Shown piece after piece: positions 3,918-28,529 of a stretch of DNA of 31,781 nt (position 1 is the first letter of the stretch; each line of letters begins with the position of its first letter). The notes under the pieces are model-generated. The model made no database searches, was not told the origin of the DNA, and saw only the letters and a program-made list of their open reading frames with translations. The position numbers and the translations under genes were made by a program. This DNA comes from a virus, in IMG/VR virus record IMGVR_UViG_3300027865_000027, positions 1-31,781 of that record; one strand, 5' to 3'.

Positions 3918-3929
3918 CACTCACTCCTT

Positions 3930-4747: not shown

Positions 4748-4766
4748 GTAAAAAGTGAAGGCATAA

Positions 4767-4793: not shown

Positions 4794-4825
4794 CATCTGT
4801 TCCCACACATGGCGGGTCAGGCTAC

Positions 4826-5409: not shown

Positions 5410-5449
5410 TTACTTCCCCTTTCTCTTAAAGATTTTCTTAAGTTTTCGC

Positions 5450-5458
5450 ATTATAACA
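5450..5458 (-). promoter_or_regulatory. Possible extended -10 promoter
   Basis: The minus strand reads TGTTATAAT (5458-5450), a perfect extended -10 element, in the 73-base gap between the holin candidate and the 43-residue gene. No convincing -35 box sits 16-18 bases upstream. It could give the 43-residue and exported-protein genes their own transcript. Confidence 0.3.
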
Positions 5459-5482
5459 TATCCGTCAAAATGCCATGTCCAC

Positions 5483-5722: not shown

Positions 5723-5734
5723 CACACTCTCCTT

Positions 5735-6181: not shown

Positions 6182-6441
6182 TAATGACTTCCCCCGGCTG
6201 TTTTAATCCAGATAGTAAACCCAACCGCAAAGATCATAAAAACAAAACCTATCATACCTATTAAAAAAGATTTCCAGATGATACCTCTTGTGTTCTCAAA
6301 AAACTCTATAACTTTATCCATTGCTTCATGGTGTTTCCAATGTTTTTGTCTATCTACATAAAAATCTTCTGTTTTCTTGTCAATATATTTACCTACAGCT
6401 ATTGCAATATTTTCAATCTGTTCCTCTGAAATCTCTGACAT
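6181..6441 (-). CDS. Single-pass membrane protein of the lysis region (86 aa)
   Basis: A soluble, charged N-terminal part (about 1-55) is followed by one strong membrane segment (about 58-79) and a short tail. It is directly upstream of the endolysin and overlaps its start. This topology (helical cytoplasmic part with a C-terminal anchor) is seen in several holin- or antiholin-associated proteins. I cannot tell holin, antiholin and accessory roles apart. Confidence 0.7.
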   Translation of the reverse strand: MSEISEEQIENIAIAVGKYIDKKTEDFYVDRQKHWKHHEAMDKVIEFFENTRGIIWKSFLIGMIGFVFMIFAVGFTIWIKTAGGSH

Positions 6442-6442
6442 C

Positions 6443-6727
6443 CTATTTCCCCTTTAGTCTCTCTATTTCCTGTAGAAACTTCATGTATTGTATGTATAGT
6501 TCGGGAGCCATCTTATTACGACAACTCTCTCGGTAGCATTTGTAATTCAGTTCGTATTGGATGGTTACGTTTACCAGTTCCTTAAGTTCCTGATTCCTGA
6601 TATGTGAATTGAGTGCTTCGGCTGTTGCAAAATAAGATACAGAGCCTAGGGTAAGAGTCACAATAGTAATAACTGCCAATATCAGGCTTCTAAATTCTTT
6701 TAATTGCTCAATTAGTTTCACTTTCAA
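6443..6727 (-). CDS. Membrane-anchored helical protein, possible inner spanin (94 aa)
   Basis: An N-terminal membrane segment (about 13-37) is followed by a helical, charged domain (about 38-94) with two cysteines (about 59 and 64). An N-terminal anchor plus periplasmic helix is the layout of Rz-type inner spanins, which help fuse inner and outer membranes at the end of lysis. The domain is short for that and no outer-spanin gene with a lipobox is visible, so this is a position-and-topology guess. It ends one base before the next gene. Confidence 0.6.
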   Translation of the reverse strand: MKVKLIEQLKEFRSLILAVITIVTLTLGSVSYFATAEALNSHIRNQELKELVNVTIQYELNYKCYRESCRNKMAPELYIQYMKFLQEIERLKGK

Positions 6728-8542: not shown

Positions 8543-8874
8543 TATATAGCCGCCACTCTATAGGCACTATCTGTGCCTGAATGTGTTATTTTTATACTAT
8601 CAACGCTTATGTTTGACCATTTTAAAATTTCATTGTTTTTCATGGTTATTGCATCTGTTCCCGAAAAAATCCCGTTAGTTGAAAACTCTACCGTAAAGTT
8701 ACCATCACCGTCATTTATCACAAAACCCTGAGTAGAATTAGCACCGCCAAGGTCTGTGTTAAAATCCAAAGTCACAGGACTCTCACCCGTTACAAATGAA
8801 GTATCCTCGTAAAATTGAGGAGTGTCTGCTATTTCAGCAATATTAATATCTCTTGTAGCTAATTGAATACCCAT
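8542..8874 (-). CDS. Small beta-rich appendage protein (110 aa)
   Basis: A 110-residue protein with Gly/Asp/Thr-rich beta-type sequence (FVINDGDGNFTVEFSTNG, KITHSGTDSAY). It has no signal peptide and no cysteine. Its start overlaps the previous stop (TAATG) and its own stop overlaps the start of the fibre gene, so the proteins are probably made together. An adaptor or fibre subunit is plausible; no family is recognised. Confidence 0.65.
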   Translation of the reverse strand: MGIQLATRDINIAEIADTPQFYEDTSFVTGESPVTLDFNTDLGGANSTQGFVINDGDGNFTVEFSTNGIFSGTDAITMKNNEILKWSNISVDSIKITHSGTDSAYRVAAI

Positions 8875-9422
8875 TAATCAACAATCCTCATTCTTTCAAG
8901 TGTTACGGTTTTGGTAACAAATTTCGGCTTAACAACAATATGTTCCTTCTCAACGATCACAGGTTTTTCAACAATTAAATCCTTTTCTATTATATTGTAT
9001 TTCACAACATCAACGGTTCTCTCTTTAAAGACAGGCTTATCAACAACCTCATCCTTATATATGATATTCTTAACAACAATTTCCTCCTCTATAAATACAG
9101 GCTTTTTAACAATGACTTCTTCTTCAACGATCGTGATTTTCTTTACGATAACTTCTTCTTCAACAATCTTGGGTACTCTCACTTCATATTCAACCAACTT
9201 AGGCACATTAACGATATGTTCCATTTCAACAACTTTTATATTACTGACTAAAACTTCTTTCTCTTTAAATATAGGCTTTTCAATAGTCACTTCCTTAAAG
9301 ATAGGCTTATCAACTGAAACTGTCTTCTCAACAATTTTGATTGCATCAACCGTTGCTACCTGTCCTTCAGGTACAATTATTGTCTCTTTGTCCGGGGGGC
9401 GCACCCCACCACGCATAACCAT
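8874..9422 (-). CDS. Val/Lys/Glu short-repeat protein (182 aa)
   Basis: Almost the whole protein (about 26-180) is made of roughly 13 irregular repeats of 10-13 residues. Each alternates charged and beta-branched residues and often contains V-x-K-P followed by an aromatic or Val, for example VDKPIFKEVTIEKPIFKEKE and EEEVIVKKPVFIEEEIVVKN. There is no Cys and little Gly. The pattern suggests an extended beta fibre or a rod. It resembles in style the Val/Pro/Glu repeats of protist alveolins, but common descent is not claimed. The gene sits between a small virion-type protein and fibre genes. Some repeats also show at DNA level (around 9110-9175), so the array may have grown by duplication. Confidence 0.75.
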   Translation of the reverse strand: MVMRGGVRPPDKETIIVPEGQVATVDAIKIVEKTVSVDKPIFKEVTIEKPIFKEKEVLVSNIKVVEMEHIVNVPKLVEYEVRVPKIVEEEVIVKKITIVEEEVIVKKPVFIEEEIVVKNIIYKDEVVDKPVFKERTVDVVKYNIIEKDLIVEKPVIVEKEHIVVKPKFVTKTVTLERMRIVD

Positions 9423-9733
9423 CAGCTACCCTTCCATGATTCTACTTCAATAGTCGGCGCACTACTTTCTGAAGTAGCAAAGTATAAAATAGTATTTTCC
9501 TCAAGGTATATATCATCTATGTACTTTTCCGTTCCAGCCCGGACTGTCTGGTACAAGTTACCAGTAACGCCTTCTGAAGTCATTGAAAAACGTATATCTA
9601 CCATCTCTCTTGCCTGAATAGATATCTTGCGTGTAGCCCTTACAACCTCTACAGAATACTCTGTATTTGCCGCTGCAAGTGATACTACCTGTAAAGTAAA
9701 AGTTGTTGATGGATCACTATCGTGTCTTGCCAT
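9422..9733 (-). CDS. Small virion-type protein (103 aa)
   Basis: A beta-rich 103-residue protein. It has the pattern seen in several small phage virion proteins: a TEYSVEV strand, ISIQAREMVDIRFSMT, then GTEKYIDDIYLEENTILYFAT, ending in a short Trp strand. It leads the non-exported fibre group, so a fibre adaptor or decoration role is reasonable. The start has a GGAG-type ribosome site and the stop overlaps the repeat-protein start. Confidence 0.6.
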   Translation of the reverse strand: MARHDSDPSTTFTLQVVSLAAANTEYSVEVVRATRKISIQAREMVDIRFSMTSEGVTGNLYQTVRAGTEKYIDDIYLEENTILYFATSESSAPTIEVESWKGS

Positions 9734-9742
9734 GTTTCTCCT

Positions 9743-11251
9743 TTAGTTTAAAGTTACTCCTTCTAAAGTTACTCCTTGTACTGTTATTAATTCAGGAGCT
9801 AAATAGTGAAAATATTCTTCTATATTTGTATATCCACTCCCATTCTCATCACCACTACTTGTTTTAGAAAGATCACCAAAATTTGCAATTTCCCACCAAT
9901 CTGCCATACCATCACTATCACTATCTACTGGCGGGTCTGGTGTTGTAAAAGTAGGAAAAACTACGTCTGCCATGTTAATGTAAGTTCCCTCATCTCCTGC
10001 AGTATATTCACTAACCAACCGAATATCTACACTATCTCTCATTGGTACAGTAGCCCCAGCTTGACTTACAATCTCATCAGCATAAGCCTCTGACATCGGA
10101 ACAACTGTAATAGGGATTCCACCTACAAGTTCAAAAGGAGTATCACGCCTAAAAGATGTGCTTAAATAATCTGTAGGCCAACCGTATCTTGTAATCCATT
10201 CACTCCCTGTTTGCGTGGCTCTTGTATAACCAATGTTTCCAATCATATAGATCATTTCATATGGTGTATACCCGTCTGGAAAATTACCAGTAACCGTTCC
10301 TAAACCAGAAGCCCAAACCAAAACCTCTCTACCACCAGCCGTATCTCCCTCACTCCAAGGTGCATATGATAGTGGGCCGGGCTTAACATAGTTGTGAATA
10401 AAATTTGCATGAGCTTCATAATCTCTACCACTAACATTGGTAACAGGATTCATGGTCATACTGTTAACAAGATTAAAGTTGTAGATAACATTATTGACAA
10501 AATCAACCTTTGCATCATGAGTTATCATAGGCAGTCTTCCACGAAATGACATGATAAGATTTCTATAAAAACTGGCTTCAATATCTCCATCAATAACTGC
10601 ATTCCTTCCCCATATAAGAACTCCAAGGCCATGATTAGGCTCTGGGTGAGCATCATCAACACCTTCCGCTATAAGACAATTTGAAATAGTAATGCTATCG
10701 GTTCGTACATAATTAGACGCAATATCTAAAGTCTCATCACACCCCCAACTAACTGAACAATGGTCAATAATGACATTATATGCAAGTAAACTACCATCAA
10801 TCTGTCCATAGACAGAAAGAGAATCACCAGCAGTATCACAATTTCCCGCCCCATTACATTTAGCACAACCATTTCTAAAACGCATATGTCTCATAATAAC
10901 ATCATGTGTCTGTATTATGGTCTGCCAACCTTTAACTAAAATACCACCGGGAGAAGTTTCACCTGCTATTGTAAGATATGGATTATTAATTAAAAGTACA
11001 GAGTCAAGATCAATAATACCACTTACTTCAAATACTATAATTCTTGCTCCACTGGCTTCCGCTGCTTCTCGAAATGTATCGCCATCTACAGGGTTATCAG
11101 ATAGTGTGTCGATGATATATACAGTTCCACCACGACCACCTATTGAGTTCGCACCCCCACCTTGAGCACCCGGAAAGGCTACAATGGAAAATGCCTGATA
11201 AGGCAATAATAATATTACAACTAATATAATAAATCGTTTAAGTAATTTCAT
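9743..11251 (-). CDS. Exported pectate-lyase-family beta-helix protein
   Basis: A 502-residue protein with a Sec signal peptide (cleavage likely after Ser22, AFS). The mature start is AFPGAQGGGANSIGGRGG, followed by FREAAEASGARIIVFEVSG, NPYLTIAGETSPGG, HDVIMRHMRFRNG and DHCSVSWGCDE (163-173). This is the conserved order of PL1-type pectate lyases, which cleave polygalacturonate on a right-handed beta-helix. About 60 residues from the end a DSDSDGMADWWE...GSGYTNIEEY segment resembles the Ca-binding tails of secreted bacterial polysaccharide enzymes. A Cys cluster (129-138, CAKCNGAGNC) looks like an inserted loop. I chose ATG 11251 because AAGAGGAT precedes it. It may digest capsule or biofilm, but the signal peptide is odd for a tailspike. 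Activity is not proven. Confidence 0.85.
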   Translation of the reverse strand: MKLLKRFIILVVILLLPYQAFSIVAFPGAQGGGANSIGGRGGTVYIIDTLSDNPVDGDTFREAAEASGARIIVFEVSGIIDLDSVLLINNPYLTIAGETSPGGILVKGWQTIIQTHDVIMRHMRFRNGCAKCNGAGNCDTAGDSLSVYGQIDGSLLAYNVIIDHCSVSWGCDETLDIASNYVRTDSITISNCLIAEGVDDAHPEPNHGLGVLIWGRNAVIDGDIEASFYRNLIMSFRGRLPMITHDAKVDFVNNVIYNFNLVNSMTMNPVTNVSGRDYEAHANFIHNYVKPGPLSYAPWSEGDTAGGREVLVWASGLGTVTGNFPDGYTPYEMIYMIGNIGYTRATQTGSEWITRYGWPTDYLSTSFRRDTPFELVGGIPITVVPMSEAYADEIVSQAGATVPMRDSVDIRLVSEYTAGDEGTYINMADVVFPTFTTPDPPVDSDSDGMADWWEIANFGDLSKTSSGDENGSGYTNIEEYFHYLAPELITVQGVTLEGVTLN

Positions 11252-11261
11252 AGTTATCCTC

Positions 11262-12347
11262 TTAATCATATGTCATATCAATGATTACTGTAGCTCCCGC
11301 ATCTATTAACATTTTTATTTGTGGTCTACTGTCTAAAGTGGCAACATCAACGGTTCCATCATCATCGCATTCGGTACAGCCTTGGGCCACTAAATTATCT
11401 AAGGACAATGTATCATCTACCGCATCACCGACACCGCGAGTTGTTACAGTGGCACTGTCTATTGCATCTGATACAATAACCACAGTAAGAACTGTTCCCG
11501 CTCCTCCCCCGTCAGAGGTAGTGGTAATCCCTGTATATGTTCCATCACAGTCATCTCCGTCTGAACCAGTGCAACCGTCATCACTAAAATCATCGGTAGT
11601 GGCTGTCGCTGTAGCTTCAAGATAGAGACATACTTTTGTATCAGTGCAAGCACCAACATTTGCTTGTACTTCCCAATCTCCTATCATCTGAGCATCTGTC
11701 CCATCATTTCTCACAGTAGGAGTTCCGTCTGAGCCAATCATAGCCTCAATCCAGTCACCTTCACTTGTCCATGCTTCAACCATACCCATAGATGTAGGTA
11801 CTGGCAATGCAGTAATAGCATTATCAGCAAGTGTTTTTGTAAAATAAAACTTATTTGTTTCTCTCGTAGGTGAAACAGGAGTTGCAGCCCCATCAAGCAT
11901 TGTATGCCCGATTGTCCCGCCTTCCGAACCATCAATTCTTATCACACTTGTTAAACTTCCTACCAACTGCACTCCAATATCCATATCACATTCTTCTGCT
12001 CCTGAGCCAGTAGCAGTACAATTCCCAACTATCGAAGCGTTAGTATCAGTATCAGTACAATCAAGGTCTTTAAAAATAGCAGTGGGTGTAGACGATCTAC
12101 CAGTAGTTAAACTCCCACTTGCAATAACATCGCCAGTTGCTACTACATCTACAGCACTAATATTAGCAGTTACAGCTATATCAGTCCCATCAGTCGTCAT
12201 AGGCGCACCGTCAGGAGCATCAGAATTATTGAATATGAATTCCGTATCTACTGCATCACCAACACCACCACCACCAGTAACTGTCCACGCAAAAACTGGA
12301 GTTGATGTAAAAAGTAAAATTAATATGAGAATTATTATTTTTTTCAT
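11262..12347 (-). CDS. Exported Cys-rich beta protein (361 aa)
   Basis: Starts with a strong signal peptide (MKKIIILILILLFTSTPVFA, cleavage after Ala20). The mature part is Thr/Asp/Gly-rich and beta-type, with about ten Cys, many close together (CTDTDTNASIVGNC, CTGSDGDDC, CTECDDDG). That suggests disulphides formed after export. The first part resembles fibre repeats (DVVATGDVIASGSLTTG). AGAGG five bases before ATG 12347 decides the start over the GTG at 12353. No family is recognised. It lies between two other exported-protein genes and ends 10 bases before the pectate-lyase-like gene. Confidence 0.72.
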   Translation of the reverse strand: MKKIIILILILLFTSTPVFAWTVTGGGGVGDAVDTEFIFNNSDAPDGAPMTTDGTDIAVTANISAVDVVATGDVIASGSLTTGRSSTPTAIFKDLDCTDTDTNASIVGNCTATGSGAEECDMDIGVQLVGSLTSVIRIDGSEGGTIGHTMLDGAATPVSPTRETNKFYFTKTLADNAITALPVPTSMGMVEAWTSEGDWIEAMIGSDGTPTVRNDGTDAQMIGDWEVQANVGACTDTKVCLYLEATATATTDDFSDDGCTGSDGDDCDGTYTGITTTSDGGGAGTVLTVVIVSDAIDSATVTTRGVGDAVDDTLSLDNLVAQGCTECDDDGTVDVATLDSRPQIKMLIDAGATVIIDMTYD

Positions 12348-12349
12348 AA

Positions 12350-12727
12350 TCACCTCTTCCTTGCCTTAACAGGCTGACAAGTCATTGTTATTGAACAAGC
12401 CGTACAAGTATCTACATCTATCTGATAGTAGTTAAACGGCTGATTGACTATAGATTGCCCACCGAGTGCAGCAACATCATCTTGCATACCAAAATAAGTA
12501 ACATCATCCAGTGAACCATCTATATCAAGATTCAGAGTTCCTAAAGTCCCTGTGATATGACAAGTAATTGACTCGTAAGGCCCATCCCCACCATAAGTAG
12601 GCGACACTCCCGCCTCGTTTATAGTCGATGAAGTTCCATCGTCCTCTGTAATTGTATCAGGTGTTACATAACCAAACACCAGACACGGTACAAAAACTGC
12701 TATTAATACTGTTAATAAAATCTTCAT
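12350..12727 (-). CDS. Small exported Cys-containing protein (125 aa)
   Basis: Has a signal peptide (about 1-19, cleavage near VFG), with one Cys in the hydrophobic part that does not form a lipobox. The mature 106 residues are beta-type with four Cys (ITCHITG and DTCTACSITMTC). The start overlaps the stop of the big ejection protein by four bases (ATGA) and follows GAGGAGG, so it is made with the virion proteins. No family is recognised. It opens the run of three exported proteins. Confidence 0.72.
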   Translation of the reverse strand: MKILLTVLIAVFVPCLVFGYVTPDTITEDDGTSSTINEAGVSPTYGGDGPYESITCHITGTLGTLNLDIDGSLDDVTYFGMQDDVAALGGQSIVNQPFNYYQIDVDTCTACSITMTCQPVKARKR

Positions 12728-17073: not shown

Positions 17074-18561
17074 TTAAAAGAAATCATCGAGCCATTGTTT
17101 TACTGTTCTATCTTTTTGTTCTTGTTCCACTGGTTCAAATTCTGTTGTAATCCATTCATTTGAATCTGTATTAGGATTTTCCTGTTTCCATTTCTTATAT
17201 TTCTTCATAAAATTAATTCTATTTTCCCGACTTACATCCAAGGCATCTTTGCTATCTTTTGCCTCATCTTTAGTCATCTGCCTTGAACGAAAAGTTGTTG
17301 CGTCTACCTCATTACCGTCCTCATCTATATAAGGCAGAAAGCCCCCGTTCTTTTCCCAATTCAATATCCTGCTTTCCCCTGCCTTAAAATCATAACTATT
17401 AAGAGGGTCGGCTTTTTTAAGCGCACCATCTCTTCTTTTCTCAAAATGGTCACGCTCTGGACGAGTAATTTTTTCCTTCCTATGTGCTTTACTGACTTCA
17501 GCCCACACTTTATTTATTTCTTTTTTCTCGGCATCATCTCCTAAGTCATCGAATTTAGAAGATAAACTATCATATGTATCAGGGTCAGACCTCACTACCT
17601 TACCTTTAGCACGATTTCTTGTTGCAACTATCCTATCAGCTTTTTTTAATTTATCAAAAACTTTAGGATTAACAGCTTCTATTTCAGGTTCAGTTAATCT
17701 TCCTTCCTCAAGTTTTATAGTAAAATCAGCATCAGTGTTAATCTCTAATTCTTCAATGGCTTCCTTTCTATCTTCTTCAGCTTGGTCTTCCTGTCTTTTA
17801 AGTTCGTCATCAACAGCTTTTTGCATCCTTATAGCTTCTGCTTCTAACCGTTCTCTATCCCCTGAAGATAAAACATCATTGTAAGTGCCTGCTTTCTTTT
17901 TAATTAAGAATATTTCAGGATTGTTAGTTGCCTCTGCTGTAGCCGCTGTTAAAGCAATATCAGAAGTAGTCTCATCAATAAGCACTTGTGGATCGTCTGG
18001 TAGTGGAATTCCAGTAGCTACCTGTTCTGCTATAAAGTTTTCAAACTCTATTATCTCATCCTCCATTAAATTCGGATCAGCCTGTACGTCCTGTTTCGAT
18101 TCTTCACGTTTCAGGGCTATTTGATTTGCAATATCTTTCAGCGTTTCGGCACTTTCATGAGATATCGTCTTCAGTTCCCATTGGTCGCTTTTAGTCTTAT
18201 AAGCAAATTTAAGTTCATCCCTATATTGGCTTGGAACATCCTTAAATAATCTTTCTTCGGCAATTTTAGCCCCTTCAAGAAAACTCTGTCTTGCACCCGC
18301 AGCATCACCAAACCTCTTTTCCTTTTCCTCTAAATGCAAGTCTCTCAGCGTACGGTTAAATTCTATCTTCTTATTATTTATTGCATTAAGGTCTTGAGCT
18401 TTAGCTGACGTTACTACGGCATCAATGGCCACATCCTGTAAGAGCTTAAATTCCTTACCAAGTCCCTCGGTTACTTTTTGTAAAGGCTCAACATCTATAG
18501 GAGTGGCAGCTACCTTGCCAGTTGGTTGTCTTTCAGTTTGAGGTCCGGGTATCTTCGGCAT
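17074..18561 (-). CDS. Internal virion protein, gp15-like position (495 aa)
   Basis: A highly charged, helical protein (Lys, Glu, Asp, Arg throughout). The N-terminus is Pro-rich (PKIPGPQTERQPTGKVAATP), followed by long amphipathic helices with coiled-coil character (about 100-320). There is no membrane segment or signal. The N-terminal pattern and the place between the gp14-like and gp16-like genes fit the T7 gp15-type core protein, which leaves the head with the DNA and helps form the periplasmic conduit. Direct similarity to gp15 is not evident by eye. Confidence 0.72.
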   Translation of the reverse strand: MPKIPGPQTERQPTGKVAATPIDVEPLQKVTEGLGKEFKLLQDVAIDAVVTSAKAQDLNAINNKKIEFNRTLRDLHLEEKEKRFGDAAGARQSFLEGAKIAEERLFKDVPSQYRDELKFAYKTKSDQWELKTISHESAETLKDIANQIALKREESKQDVQADPNLMEDEIIEFENFIAEQVATGIPLPDDPQVLIDETTSDIALTAATAEATNNPEIFLIKKKAGTYNDVLSSGDRERLEAEAIRMQKAVDDELKRQEDQAEEDRKEAIEELEINTDADFTIKLEEGRLTEPEIEAVNPKVFDKLKKADRIVATRNRAKGKVVRSDPDTYDSLSSKFDDLGDDAEKKEINKVWAEVSKAHRKEKITRPERDHFEKRRDGALKKADPLNSYDFKAGESRILNWEKNGGFLPYIDEDGNEVDATTFRSRQMTKDEAKDSKDALDVSRENRINFMKKYKKWKQENPNTDSNEWITTEFEPVEQEQKDRTVKQWLDDFF

Positions 18562-19122
18562 CTATTTACCCTCCAATAATCCAGCTTCACTTGCTGACTT
18601 AATAATCCTTGAAGTACCTCTCAGTATCGCAGAGGCCGTTCCGATACGAGCTATAGCGGAAGCCTGCCTGCCTTCTAACCTTGCTGTTGAGGCACTTATC
18701 AATTCATTCTGAACGTCTACATCTCCTGCAAATTTTATTGCCAGAGCCGCCATATCACCTTGTAATCCGGTTTCCTCTATTACCTGTCGTGCTGACTCGG
18801 AAATCTGCACTCCAGCCTTGCCAAATAAAGCACGTTGTGTTGAGGTTAATCTCTTTATTTCTTTTCTTTTTAAAGCTACCGCCCTATCTCTATTCTCTCT
18901 GGCAATACGGGCATTTATCTCGGCGACTTGAGCCTTCAATTCAGATGAAAAACGCAACGCTTCACTACGAGCTTTTATATTTTGAATATCTACATAGGCT
19001 GAACCTATAGCACTTATAGCCTGTAATCCGAAAATTGAGGCATTGGAAGTCTTGCTGAACGATGAAGATGAACCCCCTGTATTGCCTCCGAAACTCTGTC
19101 TCTGATTACCGAAAAAAGGCAT
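18562..19122 (-). CDS. Internal virion protein, gp14-like (186 aa)
   Basis: A 186-residue protein with a Gly/Ser-rich start, a hydrophobic Ala/Gly/Ile segment (about 31-48) and a long helical part rich in Ala, Arg and Glu (KARSEALRFSSELKAQVAEI, FGKAGVQISESARQVIEETG). The segment FGKAGVQISESA is the pattern typical of phage core proteins in the T7 gp14 class, which form the first pore in the outer membrane. It is placed between the nozzle gene and the gp15-like gene, one base from each. Confidence 0.78.
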   Translation of the reverse strand: MPFFGNQRQSFGGNTGGSSSSFSKTSNASIFGLQAISAIGSAYVDIQNIKARSEALRFSSELKAQVAEINARIARENRDRAVALKRKEIKRLTSTQRALFGKAGVQISESARQVIEETGLQGDMAALAIKFAGDVDVQNELISASTARLEGRQASAIARIGTASAILRGTSRIIKSASEAGLLEGK

Positions 19123-22100
19123 CTACACAGCCTCCTTTGTATCAACACTGGCTACAACAGCTACAACAGTCTGTGGGAATGGTTTATCTTGTAAAATAGT
19201 AACTTTACCATCTGTTTCGTATCCTTCGGGATAATCAATATCTACCTTATCGCCAGAAAATAACGTAGCTGAAGTAAAATCAACACGGTCAGTATCAGTT
19301 TCATTCGGCCCGATTAAGGCGTTATATGATTTATTAAATCTTAAATGTACCTTTATGATTCTCTTGATTCTGCCCTGTGCTGTGCCGTCTGAAGAACCAG
19401 CTTCCATTTTTACAAGTTGCAATACCCCGGTATACGGAACACCGACCCCGACCTTAGATGCTGAGTCTATAGTTATCGACCCACTTGATACTACCGCATC
19501 GTCCTGTTCTACACCATCACCTATTACATTGACTGTTTCCCCTTCAAGGTGGTCAAGACCTGAGATGGTTGTAGTTGCTACACCGTCATACTTCAAGCCA
19601 GAATCTGAAAACAGTATAGGACTTGTCGTTAAATCATCGTCATTGAATATAGAGTCCATCTTCTCAATATATCTTACTGTAGAACCATTAACGCTTCGTC
19701 TGATAATTGCCCATAATTCATCTTCATTCGCACCGGGTATAACTGCAACCGATTCAAACACCCCACTTGCCCCTGTTGTGTGCTTATGCCATGCGATTAC
19801 GTTCTGATCTTTAAGTAAGGTCAAGCCTATTAAAACACCATCTACCCTAACCATCCATAAAGTAGAATAAGGCTCATTCTGAAATGCCATTTGTATAATA
19901 CCGTCACCAGTTATATGTTCTGCCAATAAGTTAAGATCATCTGATTTATACCTATCTACATCAAAACTAAATATCATCTCTCTGAGCTTCTTCGCACCTT
20001 TTTGAGCATATATAATAAACTGCCCCATCTTTACAGGCTGGATATCCGCACTACCATTACTTGTTTGTTCCTTTGCATCGACATTTGTAGGGGTTACAGG
20101 AGTGCCAGGGCTTTTACTTCCGAACGCCCATTCACCACCTCCAGTTCCTATAAGAAGATTATCTCCATCTTCCATCCACACAATAGTGTTGACTTGCTTA
20201 CCAGCTAACGTAAAAGCGTAAGCGTCCGCATCAGCGGCAGCACTTGGATCGTGGTTCTCATAGTCGTCTGCCTGTGATGCCCATATAGTCTGAGGAAATG
20301 ACGGTGAGCCAGCCCATAAAAGCCTATTCTCAAAGAAGACCACCGTAGACGGATAATCGTTTGTAGTCCAGACAGATTTCTTAAGTTCCCATTCACCAGC
20401 ATCCATTACAACGTCTGTATCATATGTATCTGAAGCCAACGCTGCGGCTGATACAACTTTTTTATTAGTGTAGGCCATTATCTTATATGGTATAATTCCC
20501 GTTCCGTCATTTGTCGTTACAAACTTACCAACATCTCCAGCCTCAAATACATCAAGTGAACAAGTAAGTGTTACGACCTCTCCGTAATTAACTATAACCC
20601 CACCTGCGTAATGCCCTGATATTGTCATTGTTCCACTTTGATTTGAACCTACGAAATCCCATGTACCGGAGGCAACAGTTGTACCTGAGAACGCTACAAA
20701 TATATCTACCGTTGCGTTATCAGAATCAGCTACCGCTACGATAATCGCCCTTCCATTGCCAACCGTACTGTCTTCCCTTATCTCCCTGCCTACGTCACCG
20801 TCTTCAAATAAAGTACCCCCTGCGGCTCCGTCTGAAGCAGCTATACCAATTCCTACTGCTTTTTGACCGAGAGTAAGGGCTATACTTGGATCTTCCTTTT
20901 CGACCTGTAACGGTGCTGGTAGAAATTCAATCTCGATTAATTTCCATACGGCATCCGATAACCTGACCAACTTACGAGAAGCATAATTCTTATGAGCTAT
21001 GTAAAGCGTATCCGATGATTGTGCAAACTTAAGCTGAAATAAATGTTCTTTAAGGTATGGAGTCACAACTTCTACAAGCGTACCACCACCATCTGCTGAT
21101 AGACCATACTCAACAGTAGGGGGAACAAAAGCAGTCGTCCACCTTGCGGTATCCGATATTCTATATTCATCAGTTCTTACATTCGCATCCTGCTTTGATC
21201 CGTATATTAATAACTTCGTATCGGAATCAGAATCAGGATGGGTAGTCGGAACTGTTATAGTGTCTGACCCGCCCGAAGGTGCTGCACTAAATGTATTGGC
21301 GTGAGTTATACGAGCATCCTGTATATTACCAGCAAAAGCAGAAGTACCGGGTGTTAATTCCCCTACATACAAAAGCCCTGCCTTAGTGTACCCGGTTGCA
21401 TGAGAATCACTTGCCATTTGAACGCCATCAAGATATAACCCGTAATCATCACCAACCTTACATAAAGCTACATGATGCCAGTCAGTATCCTCTATTTCCT
21501 CTCCAGCCCCACCAGTACCTATAAGTTCTACCTCAAAGCCACCTCCGGTATCTTGAAACCTGAAGACAAGCCCTGACCCGTGTATATGTCCTAAATACCA
21601 AAAATTATTAGCGTTTTCGTATTGAGCTATATATATCTCTGTGCCTGCATGGTCAGTGTGCTTTACCTGCACATCTATAGTTACATTGGTCTGATTACTG
21701 ACATCCCACTCAAGACTGTCCGGCATATTCAGATTATCGCCTGTTCCGTCAAATAGTAAAGAGCTTTGAGTGCCTGACCACCTGCCAGTAGAATTAGCCA
21801 TAGTCACATTATTGGCTAAAGTAATTATATGCCCTGTATTACCTGAGTCGTAAATACCTAATGTTGCAGATATAGAGCCAAGCCATAAAGCCTGATCTAA
21901 ATCCGGCATTGTTACACTTGCGGTAAAAGTTGTAAGAACCACGCCATCTACGGTTATCGCCCAATCATTTGCGTTACCATTCCATCCCCTGACTACCGCC
22001 ACATGATACCAAGTGCTACCAGAGGGAACCCATGTAGCCTCCTTATGTATTAAACGTGCAGCGGTACTATCTACGTGAAGAACTATCTTCCCTCTTGCAT

Positions 22101-22725
22101 GATCTTGATACAGATTAATGAACCCACCAGCAGCGGCGTTATGAGCCTGACTGTATAAAGATTCTTGTCCAGCAGGTGATCTAAAGTACACCCACAGATC
22201 AATAGTCAGGGCAGCGGTAGTATAGCTCCAATCAGCGTGATCTGCTACAGAAAGGTAATCTCCAACTGCATCGAAAATCCCTGCGGCTGTACCGAATTTC
22301 TTTTCATCAGCAGCTAATTGTGCTTGTCCATTGGCAGTAGCAGTATGTCCTGTTGCCGAAGAATCAGTAAATACAACGCTTCCGTTATTACCGTTCATAT
22401 GAAGCATCAGTAACGTGTTGGCATCAACCCCGTAAAGCCTGCCTCCATCCCTGTAAAATCTGATGTATAAATCTCCAAACTCAAGGATATACGCTTGTTC
22501 GTTTGAAAACCTGAAAGGTACAAGTCGGGATTGCTTAGCGTTAGTTTTAGTGCCACCTATGTACTCAAATGCAGGACGGAATATAGCCGGGCCTTGAGGA
22601 GTAACAACGTAGTTTTCACACTTTTTTAAGAGCTTATCGTATTTGTCAAGATCAGTTCTACCCTCTATTAAAGGGCTGACTTCACCACCATTAAAAGATG
22701 GGATTAATTTGTACTCCCTCGACAT
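19123..22725 (-). CDS. Tail nozzle protein (T7 gp12-like) with inserted LamG-like domains
   Basis: A 1200-residue protein. The start (SFNGGEVSPLIEGRTDLDKYDKL, then NYVVTPQGPAIFRPAFEYIG and LVPFRFSNEQAYILEFGD) is the well-known N-terminus of podovirus tail tubular protein B. Between residues about 103 and 535 it carries two concanavalin/LamG-like domains. The first (FDAVGDYLSVADHADWSYTT, LTIDLWV, WYHVAVVRG) seems to resume after the second, at DEYRISDTARW (519-530), so one may be nested in the other. Nozzle sequence continues from about 540 (KFAQSSDTLYIAHKNYASRK). The inserts probably face outward and may bind surface glycans. T7 gp12 is 794 residues, so the inserts explain much of the extra length. 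Confidence 0.9.
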   Translation of the reverse strand: MSREYKLIPSFNGGEVSPLIEGRTDLDKYDKLLKKCENYVVTPQGPAIFRPAFEYIGGTKTNAKQSRLVPFRFSNEQAYILEFGDLYIRFYRDGGRLYGVDANTLLMLHMNGNNGSVVFTDSSATGHTATANGQAQLAADEKKFGTAAGIFDAVGDYLSVADHADWSYTTAALTIDLWVYFRSPAGQESLYSQAHNAAAGGFINLYQDHARGKIVLHVDSTAARLIHKEATWVPSGSTWYHVAVVRGWNGNANDWAITVDGVVLTTFTASVTMPDLDQALWLGSISATLGIYDSGNTGHIITLANNVTMANSTGRWSGTQSSLLFDGTGDNLNMPDSLEWDVSNQTNVTIDVQVKHTDHAGTEIYIAQYENANNFWYLGHIHGSGLVFRFQDTGGGFEVELIGTGGAGEEIEDTDWHHVALCKVGDDYGLYLDGVQMASDSHATGYTKAGLLYVGELTPGTSAFAGNIQDARITHANTFSAAPSGGSDTITVPTTHPDSDSDTKLLIYGSKQDANVRTDEYRISDTARWTTAFVPPTVEYGLSADGGGTLVEVVTPYLKEHLFQLKFAQSSDTLYIAHKNYASRKLVRLSDAVWKLIEIEFLPAPLQVEKEDPSIALTLGQKAVGIGIAASDGAAGGTLFEDGDVGREIREDSTVGNGRAIIVAVADSDNATVDIFVAFSGTTVASGTWDFVGSNQSGTMTISGHYAGGVIVNYGEVVTLTCSLDVFEAGDVGKFVTTNDGTGIIPYKIMAYTNKKVVSAAALASDTYDTDVVMDAGEWELKKSVWTTNDYPSTVVFFENRLLWAGSPSFPQTIWASQADDYENHDPSAAADADAYAFTLAGKQVNTIVWMEDGDNLLIGTGGGEWAFGSKSPGTPVTPTNVDAKEQTSNGSADIQPVKMGQFIIYAQKGAKKLREMIFSFDVDRYKSDDLNLLAEHITGDGIIQMAFQNEPYSTLWMVRVDGVLIGLTLLKDQNVIAWHKHTTGASGVFESVAVIPGANEDELWAIIRRSVNGSTVRYIEKMDSIFNDDDLTTSPILFSDSGLKYDGVATTTISGLDHLEGETVNVIGDGVEQDDAVVSSGSITIDSASKVGVGVPYTGVLQLVKMEAGSSDGTAQGRIKRIIKVHLRFNKSYNALIGPNETDTDRVDFTSATLFSGDKVDIDYPEGYETDGKVTILQDKPFPQTVVAVVASVDTKEAV

Positions 22726-22728
22726 CTA

Positions 22729-23559
22729 TTATCTTCCCTTTATAACCCAATTAAAGTTAGTGTCTGCTGGCTGTTCGTCAGGATCAGCTTCAAATGAATC
22801 CTGAGCCTCTGCTTTCTGTAAAGCATCTTCGAATTCCAGTAGTATATCCCCCCACATAGTTCTGCTATTCGCTATAGGCATACATATCTGAAGTGCTATC
22901 TTAAGATACAACGCCCTTATAAATGCCGAGGTAAACTTGGATACATCCGTAATCCGTGCTATGTAAGGTAACTGTAGAACATCATCACCTGCATACAAAT
23001 AATCACCTTCATCGAGAAAATGAACAGGTGGAGCGATATTTGCGTTTTTATCTACAAAAGTAGTTAAGTAATCCGATGGTTTATCGAATATCCAATCATA
23101 TCCTATCCCTCGTCTAAGAACAAGAGTTACACCCGCAGTCGGACCTTCTGCTGTAAGTGCATTGTCATTTACAAGAGTGAGCGTAGCATCGGTAGCCGTT
23201 GCAACGGTAAATCCAGTTTGAGAATCGTTACTATCACTGTCTTCAGGACTTACCCGCCAACCAGCAATAATACCGCCCGTTGCAACAAATTTCGAATCTG
23301 AGTCCGCTATGGTATCAGGGTCAGCATCAGCGAATGTAAGATTAGCAGCAGTAGCGTAAGTCTTATTATCTAACGTCACAAGCCTACGAGCGAAGTTCCA
23401 AGGAAATGCTCGTAAGACGTTATCTCTTTCGTTAGCGAAGTGGAGGTTACACTGTCTTGCAGCTTTATTGTCATCCGTCAAGGCAGTTATCTTGTCATGA
23501 CCTACTCTGGCTAAAGCCATGTTCGCAAGTTCTACCTCGGTGGTAATTAATGTAGACAT
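22729..23559 (-). CDS. Tail tubular protein A / head-tail adaptor (T7 gp11-like)
   Basis: A 276-residue protein with the typical start VELANMALARVGHDKITALTDD, then AARQCNLHFANERDNVLRAFPWNFARR, seen in podovirus adaptor proteins. These form the ring between portal and nozzle. A loop of about 90 residues in the middle (about 60-150, Asp/Thr-rich) is longer than usual and may be an insertion. The C-terminal part (YDWIFDKPSDYLTTF, ALYLKIALQICMPIANSRTM) is again family-like. The next gene is the nozzle, as expected. Confidence 0.9.
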   Translation of the reverse strand: MSTLITTEVELANMALARVGHDKITALTDDNKAARQCNLHFANERDNVLRAFPWNFARRLVTLDNKTYATAANLTFADADPDTIADSDSKFVATGGIIAGWRVSPEDSDSNDSQTGFTVATATDATLTLVNDNALTAEGPTAGVTLVLRRGIGYDWIFDKPSDYLTTFVDKNANIAPPVHFLDEGDYLYAGDDVLQLPYIARITDVSKFTSAFIRALYLKIALQICMPIANSRTMWGDILLEFEDALQKAEAQDSFEADPDEQPADTNFNWVIKGR

Positions 23560-23562
23560 GGC

Positions 23563-23853
23563 TTACTCCTTATTTTTTTTAGGTCTACCCGGTTTCCTCT
23601 TTGCTTTACTATCTTTTGTGAGCTTAGTTAATAAGTCAGGGTTTTGATCGTTGATCTTATCCCCTGCTGAAACTGGCTCTTTTTCTGTTATGTCTTCTAC
23701 GATGACTCTTTTTGTGAAATTCGCTCTAATTACATCATCGATCTCCGTACCAACAGGCAAGGTGATCGTCCTCTCCTTCGTATCCAAAGGAGCTTCAGGA
23801 GAGAACGTCATTGCACCGTAAAAAACCTCTGTGTGACAATCGTAATTGTCCAT
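23563..23853 (-). CDS. Small protein with AT-hook-like tail (96 aa)
   Basis: A soluble protein whose first about 70 residues are acidic, while the end is strongly basic and reads KRKPGRPKKNKE, a clear AT-hook core (GRP flanked by Lys/Arg). AT-hooks bind the minor groove of AT-rich DNA. It lies between the exported protein and the tail adaptor, so a role in DNA packaging or virion completion is possible. ATG 23853 is preferred over TTG 23856 because AAGGAGAT precedes it. No family is recognised. Confidence 0.65.
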   Translation of the reverse strand: MDNYDCHTEVFYGAMTFSPEAPLDTKERTITLPVGTEIDDVIRANFTKRVIVEDITEKEPVSAGDKINDQNPDLLTKLTKDSKAKRKPGRPKKNKE

Positions 23854-23862
23854 CAAATCTCC

Positions 23863-25614
23863 TTATCCAGTACAAGTTATTGAGCCAGTTTGTTCACCAA
23901 CTCCACGACAGAACCAATCAACCCCGTCAGATACGCAAATAACATAATCACCTACTGTATCAGCAGTATCAACGAAATTAATCACATCAGCATCATTCAC
24001 GTTATAAGAAGCATCGTCCACATCTATCATACAAACAATGTTATCTCCTTCAGGTGAAGTTACTGTATCATCATCTGCGGAATCTGAAGCATTAATGAAC
24101 ATGAACTCACAACCCGCTGAACCTGCAATTGCCGGTAGTGTATGAGTTGTTGCTGGAGTACCATCTGCATCCGAGAATACCAGACCACACTCATTCATGG
24201 TAAGAGTATTTGCTCCACCTTCAGTTGTGTATCTCTCAGAAGGTTTAACCTCTCCATATAAGGTTACTACTGGAACATCTGAACCAAAATCTCTAATAAG
24301 AATAACTTCATCAGTATCGTATGCTTCACCTAACCCAATAACGAACTGGTCATCGGAGTCATCAATACCCATGTAGAATTCTTCAACAACACCGTCAAAG
24401 ACAAGGTATGTATCTTCTGCTCCATTATCACCAATCGTCATTTTCGGAAGTGTACCTGTTAAGAGAATAGTATTGTCATCAGCGTCAAAGCGGACTCTTT
24501 CTTCAACTGTACCTGCTACAAACTGATTGTAAACAATGTCAGCATTTTCAGTACCATCACCGCCATCAGTTAAGATGAAATCAATACTAACAGCTTCTTC
24601 AAGACCTGCTGCTGCGCCGTCAAGATTTACAGTGATAGTTCCACCAAGATTTGTTGTACCTTCGCCGCCTGTAGTATCTACTTCAAGTAACAACATGGCG
24701 TTGGTAAGTAAGGCATTAGTTTCGGTTGTATTTGCCGTAACTTTTACTTGATCTCCAGTAGTTCCCGATGATGCTCCAGCCAAGCTAAGCACTTCTATGG
24801 GAGTACCTGCTGTTGCAACCTTAAACCTCATTGTTGCATCATTTGTGGCTGCTGTAACATCAGTCTGGATAACGTCAAGGGCTGCTATTTCTTCCGTATC
24901 ATTACCTGTACCATCAGGCATATGCCATACCATGCCGATACCTGCGCTATTAGCCGATACCGAACCTGCACCCATTGAGAATCTAATCATATCCTCAAGA
25001 ACGTCAGCTTCAGTTGTGCTTGAGTTGAACCAGAAAGAATCAGCAGTTGTAGCTGAATTCGCTGCTATTATTCTAAATGTTTCAAACAACGCACCAGCTG
25101 AATTCTGTTCAATGTAGAAATCAACCATTTCAGCAGCATCGGTTTCGTCATTGAACACCATATTGATATTGCCCTGTTCTTCAAGGCCACCCAAATCTTC
25201 CATATCAAATGATATGCCTGTACCAAATCCAGCCGCAACCGTACCAGTAGTTGAATGACTCGTAGTGAGTAAATCAGCCACAACATTTGTTGTTTCATCC
25301 GTGACCGTAATCGTAGTCAATTCGGTATGAGCATTAGTCGCCCCGGCTGTGAAACTTGAGTCACCAAAAGTAACGACTCTATCTGCTGTCGGGTCAGTTA
25401 TGAGAAAACAAGTTTCAAAGGCATTATCAGTCGTACCTTCAAAACAAAGCGATGTTCCGTCAGTCTGATCGGTCTGTTCCTGTACAACACCATCTATTGT
25501 AACCGGCCCTCTGAACCTCATGTCATCTCTGATTTCAGTCGCATACGCAACTGCGAGGCCAATAGTGAGAATCAGCATTAACCCCCACAATGTACCACTT
25601 TTAAATATCTTCAT
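23863..25614 (-). CDS. Exported fibre-like Cys-containing protein (583 aa)
   Basis: Starts with a Sec signal peptide (Lys2 and Lys5, a hydrophobic stretch, AYA before Thr26). The mature part is Thr/Asp/Ala/Gly-rich and beta-type, with fibre-like repeats such as GTGISFDMEDLGGLEEQGNI and GGTITVNLDGAAAGLEEAVS. Cysteines cluster at the start and in the last 110 residues (NECGLVF, GCEFMF, VCMID, ICVSDGVDWFCRG, ITCTG), suggesting disulphides. The C-terminal domain resembles that of the fibre at 7157-8542. It has GGAGGAGGT before its ATG. It lies between capsid/cement and tail genes, where a head fibre might be, but the signal peptide argues for export. Confidence 0.72.
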   Translation of the reverse strand: MKIFKSGTLWGLMLILTIGLAVAYATEIRDDMRFRGPVTIDGVVQEQTDQTDGTSLCFEGTTDNAFETCFLITDPTADRVVTFGDSSFTAGATNAHTELTTITVTDETTNVVADLLTTSHSTTGTVAAGFGTGISFDMEDLGGLEEQGNINMVFNDETDAAEMVDFYIEQNSAGALFETFRIIAANSATTADSFWFNSSTTEADVLEDMIRFSMGAGSVSANSAGIGMVWHMPDGTGNDTEEIAALDVIQTDVTAATNDATMRFKVATAGTPIEVLSLAGASSGTTGDQVKVTANTTETNALLTNAMLLLEVDTTGGEGTTNLGGTITVNLDGAAAGLEEAVSIDFILTDGGDGTENADIVYNQFVAGTVEERVRFDADDNTILLTGTLPKMTIGDNGAEDTYLVFDGVVEEFYMGIDDSDDQFVIGLGEAYDTDEVILIRDFGSDVPVVTLYGEVKPSERYTTEGGANTLTMNECGLVFSDADGTPATTHTLPAIAGSAGCEFMFINASDSADDDTVTSPEGDNIVCMIDVDDASYNVNDADVINFVDTADTVGDYVICVSDGVDWFCRGVGEQTGSITCTG

Positions 25615-25874
25615 CGAGTTACCTCCTCCTTAACCTTGAAAATGATCTCATGCCATAAGTTACAAGACCTTGTCGGGCTTGGTCTTACATAAATCCACGG
25701 AGCATCCCATGTTTTAGTTTTAGCTAATGGTCTGAGCTTATCTTCATTATCAGGGTCAATAATAAAACCCATGTCGATAAGTTTTCTGGCATTAGCCATT
25801 GGATCATCTGCCATGAAATAATCAAGATTGTACCGTTCTAAAAAATCACTTTTCACACCACCGTTATCACTCAC
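25611..25874 (-). CDS. Hypothetical protein (87 aa), GTG start
   Basis: A small soluble protein that starts with GTG behind a strong AAGGAGGAT. It contains a DNEDKLRPLAKTKTWDAPWIYVRPSP segment and no membrane part. The stop overlaps the ATG of the exported protein by four bases. It follows the intergenic hairpin and so may be expressed less than the capsid genes. No family is recognised. Confidence 0.65.
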   Translation of the reverse strand: MSDNGGVKSDFLERYNLDYFMADDPMANARKLIDMGFIIDPDNEDKLRPLAKTKTWDAPWIYVRPSPTRSCNLWHEIIFKVKEEVTR

Positions 25875-25892
25875 AAATCCTCCTTAAGTTAA

Positions 25893-25920
25893 AGGAAGGC
25901 GGTACTATTACCGCCCTCCT
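25893..25920 (-). terminator. Strong hairpin after capsid/cement genes (partial terminator candidate)
   Basis: A 12-bp stem (25893-25904 with 25909-25920, one G-U on the minus strand) has a 4-base loop. It occupies the 54-base gap between the cement gene and the next gene. The T-run after it is short on the minus strand (TTTAAC) and longer on the plus strand (AATTTTT). The position after the capsid genes recalls T7 T-phi, which lets only part of transcription through. It could instead protect the capsid mRNA end. Confidence 0.55.
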
Positions 25921-25928
25921 AATTTTTA

Positions 25929-26477
25929 CTACCTCAGTGTCGTATCGTCCGGCCCACCGAGCCATGCTGTTACAGTACCTGCACCCATATCATGACTTGC
26001 TGTTGTTGTCTGATATGTAATGCCAATATAAGGCTTTGTCGTATCCCCAATAAGATCAGGTGGAAGTTTAGACCTTACAAGATACTTACCAGCCGCCACA
26101 TGACCGTTGTTTCCAGCCGATGATGTGATGTTTAATACACTAAACGACATTGCAATCGTACCGCTCTCTATAGACGAAGCACTCGCCTTTTTACGAAGAT
26201 GAACTACCATCTCAGTAATAGTAGTTGACGATGCAACTAAAGCTGTGCTACCGACTATAATGTTAAGCCAGATTTCACCGCCACGGGCAATGTCATTAAT
26301 CGCATTAGCCGATCCTACGGAAAAGTCGTATCTGGCCGAAGCACTACCTGTCAGAAACCTCTTCACTAAATCTAACTGCAATACATTGTTAGAGGAAGCA
26401 GGGACAATAGCCGCAGTTTCGTCAAGTGCTGCTAACGAACCGTTTTTGTGAAATACTAATGTGCTATCCAGTATCAT
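25929..26477 (-). CDS. Capsid cement/decoration protein (Bbp16-like)
   Basis: A 182-residue beta-rich protein directly after the capsid gene. It has the run SSNNVLQLDLVKR, DIARGGEIWLNIIV, GTIAMSFSVL, KYLVRSKLPPDLIGDTTKPYIGITYQT and a closing GTVTAWLGG strand. This order matches my memory of Bbp16-type cement proteins, which clamp capsid subunits from outside. Bbp16 itself is shorter, so loops may be longer here. There is no signal peptide. A hairpin follows the gene. Confidence 0.72.
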   Translation of the reverse strand: MILDSTLVFHKNGSLAALDETAAIVPASSNNVLQLDLVKRFLTGSASARYDFSVGSANAINDIARGGEIWLNIIVGSTALVASSTTITEMVVHLRKKASASSIESGTIAMSFSVLNITSSAGNNGHVAAGKYLVRSKLPPDLIGDTTKPYIGITYQTTTASHDMGAGTVTAWLGGPDDTTLR

Positions 26478-26493
26478 TTTGTACCCTCCTTTC

Positions 26494-27510
26494 TTATGTT
26501 ATAGCAGTTTCAGTGTTGCCGATTTGCTCAACAAGCCTCACTGGCCTGCCGTTGAAACGAAGAATGTCCTCACCAGCAAGACCATCACCTGCGCCCGCTG
26601 TGTAATTGACATTATTCTTATCCTTCAACTTAATCTGCATCTGAGTCAAAATAGTCTCATTACAGTAAATCGTTGCTCCTCTACCACGGTTTTTCATGCG
26701 GTTTAAGAGTTTAATGAGATTATCTTCATCGAAGATGTTTGAACTACCTGCTGTTTCGATGTTTGCTAAACGAGCAATACATCTATCATCACGCACTACA
26801 AGACCAGCGTTGATCCTGAACCAATCACGGTATGCTTCGTACTGTGCTGCTGAAGCTAACGCTGATGTGGAACTGGACTTTGTAACCTGCCCTTTGTCCT
26901 GATGTTCTACTCCTACAGTCTGTGAACCCTTCGGGAACACCATGTGACAGTTATCCGTTCCCCACATTACAATGTAAATAGAGGTTGTATCAGCACCCGT
27001 ACCACCTTGTCCGAGAACAAGACCGTTAGTTTGCAGATTCGGCATCCTATGAGGTAATCCGTTAAACCTCTCAGGGTTTGAAGGTACATCACCGTAGTTT
27101 GTATTTGTACTTCTGTTAAAGATTGTTTTGACAAGCGTCTGCCCCATACCTTCAAGAAACGAAGTTGCTTCCTGCATCCTTGCTTCGGCAGGGTTAGGCG
27201 AGTTGTCAATTATCCATTTATCAGACTCTGAATATGACTCAAGCAGTCCGATGGTTTCGTCTATGGTTTCTGTGGTACTTGACTCTGTACCAACACCAGC
27301 GTTCAACTGCCTCCATGTACCTGTCGGAATACCAGTCCTCCGAACAACACGATGGAAGGTTGTGCCGTTTGCTTCCTGCCACACCATATCCTGAAACACA
27401 TCGTTGACCTGATTCAGCACTTCCGCTATACGAGCAGCAGTACCGTCCGGGTTTTTCCGGCGAGCCATTTCCAAGAGCGTTAATTGAGCATTAACGTCGT
27501 TTGTCGCCAT
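26494..27510 (-). CDS. Major capsid protein (epsilon15 gp7-like)
   Basis: A 338-residue protein close in length to epsilon15 gp7. Its start MATNDVNAQLTLLEMARRKN, followed by IAEVLNQVNDVFQDMVWQEANG and RTGIPTGTWRQLNAGV, is the familiar N-terminus of this HK97-fold capsid group. Later landmarks are FNGLPHRM, the MVFPKGSQTVGVEHQDKG stretch, RDWFRINAGLVVRDDRCIARLANIE and the C-terminal ILRFNGRPVRLVEQI. There is no N-terminal scaffold fusion, in line with a separate scaffold gene upstream. AGGAG lies seven bases before the start. Confidence 0.93.
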   Translation of the reverse strand: MATNDVNAQLTLLEMARRKNPDGTAARIAEVLNQVNDVFQDMVWQEANGTTFHRVVRRTGIPTGTWRQLNAGVGTESSTTETIDETIGLLESYSESDKWIIDNSPNPAEARMQEATSFLEGMGQTLVKTIFNRSTNTNYGDVPSNPERFNGLPHRMPNLQTNGLVLGQGGTGADTTSIYIVMWGTDNCHMVFPKGSQTVGVEHQDKGQVTKSSSTSALASAAQYEAYRDWFRINAGLVVRDDRCIARLANIETAGSSNIFDEDNLIKLLNRMKNRGRGATIYCNETILTQMQIKLKDKNNVNYTAGAGDGLAGEDILRFNGRPVRLVEQIGNTETAIT

Positions 27511-27520
27511 TTATTTTCTC

Positions 27521-28252
27521 CTAACTCGGCTCTGGCATATTCGACTTTGAAAAATCCAGCATCGGCGTACCAGAGGCCGTTCTTGGTATTTCTTTCTTTT
27601 GTGGTGTCTGATCTCCCTTAAGGAAAGCATCATCGCCAAACGCTTCAAATATCTTATGAAACGTATGCAGGATAATCGGGTCTTTGTCCATCCCGACATC
27701 CGCTAAAGACTTGAAATCGTCATCACCTGCAAACTTCTTTAAAGCTCGGACGGCTTTTTCGGAATTCGCTTCGAAATTACCCTTCCAGTTGTCCTTGAGC
27801 TTATTTTCCGCATCAAGGTCTTGTTGTTTGAGGGTTTCGTTAACTTTGTTATTCGCATCAGCCCCGTACTTGACGGCTGCTTCCCATACTGGCTTAAGCA
27901 TGGCATCAGATGCACCGGCCTTAAAGCCGACTTCTCTGATAACCTTTTCCAGCCCTTCATCGTACAGATAATCCTCCGGCAGTCCTTCGGGCTTACCGAT
28001 TGTATAACCGGTTGCTTCGTCAGGACGACCAGTTGCTTTAAAATATGCAGACTTTTCATCATCTGTCGATTGATCGTTCGGTATCCGTATCATACTTTTA
28101 GAATTTTCGGACAGGTCGATTAGCTTTCTATATGCATCTCCAGCTTTCTCCATACCACCAAATACTTCATGCCCTCTAATATCTTCAGGTACACTCGTCA
28201 ACCACGATTGTTCTTCTCCACCTTCTCCAACTGATCCGGTTTCTTCACTCAT
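27521..28252 (-). CDS. Capsid scaffolding protein
   Basis: A 243-residue acidic, helical protein just before the capsid gene. Its layout is that of phage scaffolds: a flexible acidic start, WLTSVPEDIRGHEVFGGMEKAGDAYRKL, then YTIGKPEGLPEDYLYDEGLE, a long central coiled-coil-like region (about 100-170), and a basic/Pro end that probably contacts the capsid protein. It is needed for assembly and leaves before DNA packaging. Its start overlaps the upstream gene by eight bases. Confidence 0.85.
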   Translation of the reverse strand: MSEETGSVGEGGEEQSWLTSVPEDIRGHEVFGGMEKAGDAYRKLIDLSENSKSMIRIPNDQSTDDEKSAYFKATGRPDEATGYTIGKPEGLPEDYLYDEGLEKVIREVGFKAGASDAMLKPVWEAAVKYGADANNKVNETLKQQDLDAENKLKDNWKGNFEANSEKAVRALKKFAGDDDFKSLADVGMDKDPIILHTFHKIFEAFGDDAFLKGDQTPQKKEIPRTASGTPMLDFSKSNMPEPS

Positions 28253-28529
28253 CTGTTTCCTCCTGTTTTTGTTCTATTGTTAAACTCATAATTGAGTTCA
28301 TGAACGAATTTGCGAATTCATTACTTCTGTGTTCTTCTGTCACACCAAACATCTTTAAGATTGATGTGCATAAATCTCTCTTACCAACTGCTTTATCTGT
28401 TTTCGTGTCGTCATTGAAAAAACCACCCATATATAAAATCATAGATAACGTACGTTTACCGTATTCGGTTTTAAACGTCTCACGAAAATCGTTTATATTT
28501 TCTTTTGTTAATAGGTCTTCGTCTATCAT
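28245..28529 (-). CDS. Hypothetical protein between portal and scaffold (94 aa)
   Basis: A small helical, acidic protein with no membrane part, signal or known motif. It overlaps the portal gene by five bases and the scaffold gene by eight, so it is translated with them. Small genes often occupy this place in podoviruses and may help head assembly. Function is unknown. Confidence 0.68.
   Translation of the reverse strand: MIDEDLLTKENINDFRETFKTEYGKRTLSMILYMGGFFNDDTKTDKAVGKRDLCTSILKMFGVTEEHRSNEFANSFMNSIMSLTIEQKQEETDE

Follow-up and report, generated by a model that had tools for sequence, protein, structure and literature searches.

By the textbook account, tailed phages assemble in the cytoplasm. 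Phage lyases with signal peptides are known, and so, separately, are signal-peptide genes in phages. In the flavobacterial phages Ingeline and Nekkels, signal peptides are mentioned on pectate-lyase proteins only (PMC8776804). These phages resemble the locus described here in having a lyase with a signal peptide inside the virion module; however, the signal peptide passes unremarked there, whereas the lyase of our locus belongs to a run of signal-peptide proteins in an HTVC010P-like podovirus. The phages of Porphyromonas gingivalis possess signal-peptide genes that obey the Q-rule and were read as modifiers of the host envelope (PMC10367356). They share with our locus phage genes whose signal peptides match the host, but theirs are of unknown function and without a tie to the virion.

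A further likeness is found in cultured Cellulophaga phages. According to the depositors' notes in GenBank, ten proteins headed by signal peptides were detected by MS/MS in the virions of phi39:1 (gp25-26), phi10:1 (gp91-94) and phi19:1 (gp101-104). All ten have a signal peptide, although some are short and score 5.0-8.8, below those of our locus. Gln stands at the predicted +1 position in nine of them; the signal peptidase of Bacteroidetes prefers Gln there (PMC10367356). Two to five such genes follow one another towards the end of the virion module, and several of these runs have a lyase as their last gene or close to it. The lyase reported below has a homologue in phi39:1 gp26 (28%, E 2e-25). 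Phages phi17:1 and phi18:1 were likewise examined. Signal peptides are absent from the remaining MS-listed virion proteins that were checked in phi39:1, phi10:1 and phi19:1, and from all of those of phi18:1. Judging by the MS/MS notes on the ten proteins, signal-peptide-headed proteins appear to reach the virions of cultured phages.

No publication describing signal peptides on runs of virion proteins was found in the literature searched; the original Cellulophaga proteomics paper lies outside that search. Within this literature, what is new is that signal-peptide-headed proteins of fibre type form runs at a constant place in the virion module, and do so in two or more unrelated sets of phages, in one of which the virion location is backed by deposited MS/MS evidence.

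Layout of the locus

The window, i.e., the whole stretch analysed, is the IMG/VR virus record IMGVR_UViG_3300027865_000027 of 31,781 bases, with the virion module on the minus strand (Table 1). Genes for the portal, a scaffold-like protein, the major capsid protein, two tail-tube proteins and internal virion proteins follow one another as they do in Pelagibacter phage HTVC010P. The window is described here as HTVC010P-like from its portal, which is ~30% identical to that of HTVC010P over 90%, and from the identical gene order (portal, capsid, tail). HTVC010P itself has no signal peptide in the 32 genes scanned.

Table 1. Positions of the features discussed, in the window and in other phages.
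Sequence	Feature	Positions	Strand	Remarks
Window	Rest of virion module (portal, scaffold-like, major capsid, tail-tube, internal virion proteins)	17074..30217	-	Only signal peptide is that of the 583-aa gene
Window	Fourth signal-peptide gene, 583 aa	23863..25614	-	Between capsid and tail-tube genes; predicted cut after AYA (residue 25); 8 Cys
Window	Tail-tube protein, 1200 aa	19123-22725	-	
Window	Ejection-type protein, 1445 aa	12724..17061	-	Directly upstream of the run, anchor of the conserved slot; label from size and position
Window	Signal-peptide gene 1, 125 aa	12350..12727	-	Predicted cut after VFG (residue 19); 4 mature Cys
Window	Signal-peptide gene 2, 361 aa	11262..12347	-	Predicted cut after VFA (residue 20); 9 Cys
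Window	Signal-peptide gene 3, 502-aa pectate-lyase relative	9743..11251	-	Predicted cut after AFS (residue 22); 6 Cys
Window	103-aa protein	9422..9733	-	Terminates the run; no signal peptide, no Cys
Window	182-aa repeat protein	8874-9422	-	
Window	151-aa signal-peptide protein	4826-5281	-	
L045	Signal-peptide proteins	8471-13327		
L085	Signal-peptide proteins	8722-10534		
L181	Signal-peptide proteins and lyase relative	1617-5613 and 10007-13507		
L062	Stalked signal-peptide protein	2662-4038		
L026	Stalked signal-peptide protein	11664-13199		
L032	Stalked signal-peptide protein	5090-6652		

Three signal-peptide genes follow the ejection gene without a break, as the sequence-only reading had it, and are tightly packed: the successive gaps are -4, 2 and 10 bp, the start of the 125-aa gene overlapping the end of the ejection gene by 4 bp. 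The N-termini are MKILLTVLIAVFVPCLVFG followed by YVT (125 aa), MKKIIILILILLFTSTPVFA followed by WTV (361 aa) and MKLLKRFIILVVILLLPYQAFS followed by IVAFPGA (502 aa), the predicted cut lying before the letters given. Starts were chosen by the best ribosome-binding sites. The listed GTG at 12353 for the 361-aa gene and the listed ATG at 11269 for the 502-aa gene, 6 and 18 bases upstream of the chosen starts, are less likely, and their use would leave the signal-peptide observation unaffected. False signal peptides from wrong start codons were considered and rejected: all four signal-peptide starts in the window are ATG with good ribosome-binding sites. That fourth gene, which is conserved and encodes 583 aa, had been overlooked when the exported set was put at three, all of which stand.

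Signal peptides and cysteine content

Signal peptides were called with a simple script of our own that scores the n-, h- and c-regions. A trial on 48 kb of E. coli K-12 sequence gave 6.9 or higher for each of the ten exported proteins (OmpA, CsgI, AppA, GfcA-E, TorT and Agp), and the false calls at that level were membrane proteins only. The four window proteins score 8.3-9.0, with 8.3, 8.9 and 8.9 for the VFG, VFA and AFS contexts that had been recognised from the sequence alone. All four have a positive n-region, an uncharged hydrophobic h-region and small residues at -3/-1, as is typical of Sec and signal peptidase I substrates. Their export is thus predicted with high confidence.

Such a set is unusual in a virion module, as had been supposed. 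Among 79 other phage loci, signal-peptide genes made up 8 of 765 (1.05%) at a score of at least 7.5, with no adjacent pair. Given independence of genes, a chance run of three among 27 genes has a probability of ~2.5e-5; chance as the source of the run was rejected on the 1% background and the absence of adjacent pairs.

The earlier description had two Cys-rich proteins in the run. Over 1485 aa, the four mature signal-peptide proteins hold 27 Cys, whereas the 6058 aa of the remaining virion proteins hold 12 (odds ratio 9.3, p 2e-11), a roughly ninefold content. Such enrichment is expected for folding in an oxidising compartment.

The +1 residues of the four proteins are Y, W, I and T, never Gln, which would be expected if the host lies outside Bacteroidetes. 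With phi10:1, phi19:1 and phi39:1 (and, by similarity, phi13:2 and phi46:3) the window shares runs of signal-peptide genes beside tail genes and a homologous lyase. The Cellulophaga phages belong to other phage groups, however, with Bacteroidetes hosts, +1 Gln and few Cys, and the MS/MS evidence is theirs only, whereas the window combines other +1 residues and many Cys with an HTVC010P-like core. Since it lacks the +1 Gln, the window set is taken as analogous in working to the Cellulophaga type and is not classed as a member of it.

The four proteins with signal peptides

The 502-aa protein had been called a pectate-lyase relative, and it matches phrog_27797 (E 2.7e-33) and a solved pectate lyase (PL1-like), PDB 9buj (E 1.4e-33 across residues 22-297). 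A Pfam match is absent at E up to 1, so the protein is named a relative and not a Pfam family member. The predicted signal-peptide cut directly precedes the start of the lyase domain, FPGAxG. An R.RxP stretch (R237, R239, P241) is conserved with the G001 lyase, and the C-terminus carries a DSDSDGM-type motif. This type of lyase is encoded by bacteria of many phyla, with a signal peptide in most cases checked. The proposition that the phage lyase always has one was rejected: the lyase of phage L181 has none, its N-terminus being MAIPAFPGAEG.... The phage enzyme therefore does not invariably come with a signal peptide, and one that is unneeded can be lost.

The 361-aa protein has a 75-aa region in common with a signal-peptide-headed, tail-fibre-type protein of L188 (44%, E 9e-12, z 8.4). 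It has no match in 50,697 phage records and no direct PHROG or Pfam match. For the 125-aa protein, relatives could not be identified and PHROG and Pfam matches are absent; homology to the same-position proteins in L188 and G002 is unsupported (z 2.4 and 1.2). A single-sequence AlphaFold model of the mature 125-aa protein reached pLDDT 40 and was set aside.

Behind its signal peptide, the 583-aa protein carries a domain that it shares with tail-fibre-type proteins and that occurs in 84 IMG/VR loci. Of 79 other loci examined, 76 (three cut at the 5' end) have the domain in proteins that lack a predicted signal peptide, most of these being of tail-fibre type and poor in Cys. It follows a signal peptide in three further phages, L045, L064 and L085. 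In G002, the nearest phage, the homologue has 573 aa; the signal peptide is kept though diverged (8 of 25 residues identical), all eight Cys are kept, and the start of the mature protein is invariant (ATEIRDDM). A search of bacterial genomes with this pair gave no match, nor did the 583-aa protein or the 409-aa signal-peptide protein of L085 match anything in 50,697 phage records. The 583-aa protein has no direct PHROG or Pfam match.

The slot after the ejection protein

Signal-peptide genes stand just after the ejection protein in four of the six phages that share that protein (runs of 3, 3 and 4, and one interrupted). G002, whose tail tube is 60% identical to that of the window, has three (242, 306 and 495 aa) in this place, none related by BLAST to the window's three. 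A search with the ejection protein added four further phages. Four consecutive signal-peptide genes occupy the slot in L188, and in L189 two are adjacent with a third two genes farther. The run is absent in L186 and in L187, the contig of the latter ending soon after. Across the relatives the runs recur in the slot, whereas the proteins in them are mostly unrelated in sequence. Place and export tag stay fixed in this slot while the sequences vary, from which we infer a resemblance to a host-recognition module.

Several of the signal-peptide proteins bear fibre signatures. One of L045 carries Peptidase_S74 (tail-fibre chaperone), those of L064 carry tail-fibre PHROGs, and the second one of L188, with which the window's 361-aa protein has its 75-aa region in common, is of collar-fibre type (phrog_910). 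The likeness to tail fibres and receptor-binding proteins lies in domains (phrog_910, phrog_38058 and Peptidase_S74 among the relatives, and the one that the 583-aa protein has in common with fibre-type proteins), in the place of the run after the ejection genes and in its hypervariable content. The window differs from them in having a signal peptide where the usual N-terminal docking region stands, and in its high Cys content. The signal-peptide proteins of L045, L064 and L085 have Gln at +1, which, for L045 and L085, may point to hosts whose signal peptidase resembles that of Bacteroidetes.

Possible roles of the signal-peptide set

We lean towards reading the three run genes and the 583-aa gene as an exported tail-fibre/depolymerase cassette whose products join virions. 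Three roles had been offered for the set, and addition to virions outside the cytoplasm is the one favoured here, with action of the lyase on the matrix or envelope being compatible with it. The balance is tipped somewhat towards virion addition by tail-fibre domains behind signal peptides, by a position at which tailed phages usually have their host-binding fibres, and by the Cellulophaga MS/MS notes. The MS/MS evidence comes from the depositors' annotations, and a secreted protein may co-purify with virus particles; HTVC010P and the crAss001 fibres, both without signal peptides, and the two of six ejection-protein relatives that lack the run also speak against it.

The cassette would work as follows. 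The signal-peptide proteins would be produced alongside the other virion proteins, pass through Sec, lose their signal peptides to signal peptidase I and acquire disulfides as they fold outside the cytoplasm. Meanwhile, the head, tail tube and ejection proteins would assemble inside it. Cell lysis would bring the cytoplasmic and exported sets together, and the exported proteins would attach to the particle, some serving as host-binding fibres and one as a polysaccharide lyase. The data suggest a particle whose components come from two different cell compartments.

The main alternative, possible but rather unlikely, is that the proteins are exported and never bind the virion. The putative lyase would loosen polysaccharide for the exit of progeny, and the Cys-rich, fibre-like proteins would remain periplasmic or at the cell surface, masking receptors or blocking superinfection. 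The window lyase is indeed nearest to secreted bacterial enzymes, and some marine phages encode signal-peptide proteins, with a Thr-rich stalk and a hydrophobic C-terminal segment, that look cell-anchored. The window's proteins, however, have no such C-terminal anchor; their fibre signatures and virion-module position point to particles, and the MS/MS notes put signal-peptide-headed proteins, a homologue of the lyase included, in the virions of cultured phages.

It is improbable that the N-termini stay uncleaved, serving as hydrophobic segments that dock on the tail or enter the host membrane at infection, with assembly in the cytoplasm. Cleavage motifs obey the host rule in the Cellulophaga proteins with +1 Gln, the h-regions diverge freely and yet the mature part of the 583-aa pair opens with unchanged residues, and the Cys enrichment points to an oxidising compartment, even if usual tail fibres do dock via their N-termini (crAss001 gp22, without a signal peptide, via residues 1-26). 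Very improbable is the notion that the signal peptides are leftovers of captured host genes for secreted proteins, without a role in the phage: it suits a lyase from a family of secreted bacterial enzymes, but the remaining proteins are read as phage-type fibres, their signal peptides are retained across large divergence, and L181 shows that such a peptide can be lost.

Beyond the window, we tentatively propose that particle construction is split between two compartments in some tailed phages, with head, tail tube and ejection proteins put together in the cytoplasm and Sec-exported, processed and oxidised fibres and depolymerases added at lysis, and that this habit arose in several unrelated groups. 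This is a stronger claim than a variant fibre module. If true, host-recognition proteins could acquire their disulfides in the cell envelope and be added to virions late, and this would help to explain unannotated fibres in many environmental phages.

Further observations

The 1200-aa tail-tube protein is longer than its PHROG (712 aa); the surplus, which matches stretches of structural proteins, resembles lectin-type insertions, and the G002 tail-tube protein has a comparable insert of different sequence. Right behind the signal-peptide run lies a 182-aa protein of odd composition with repeating KPIFKE/EEVIVKK-like units, no Cys and no family match. Beyond the lysis-type genes, a 151-aa protein with the signal peptide MKKLLLILMAVLFIVGMTGNAEA followed by AEP has no Cys, matched no family and looks like a small envelope protein.

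In the related phages L045 and L085, signal-peptide proteins stand behind the capsid region, one with a C-terminal Peptidase_S74. Phage L181 combines the two kinds: it has two adjacent signal-peptide proteins, one of 393 aa and one of 937 aa that gives a weak carbohydrate-binding match, and, farther along, its signal-peptide-less pectate-lyase relative. The stalked signal-peptide proteins of L062, L026 and L032 lie beside fibre genes and look anchored to the host-cell surface, i.e., of another kind than those of the window; one of these contigs carries a WhiB-like gene.
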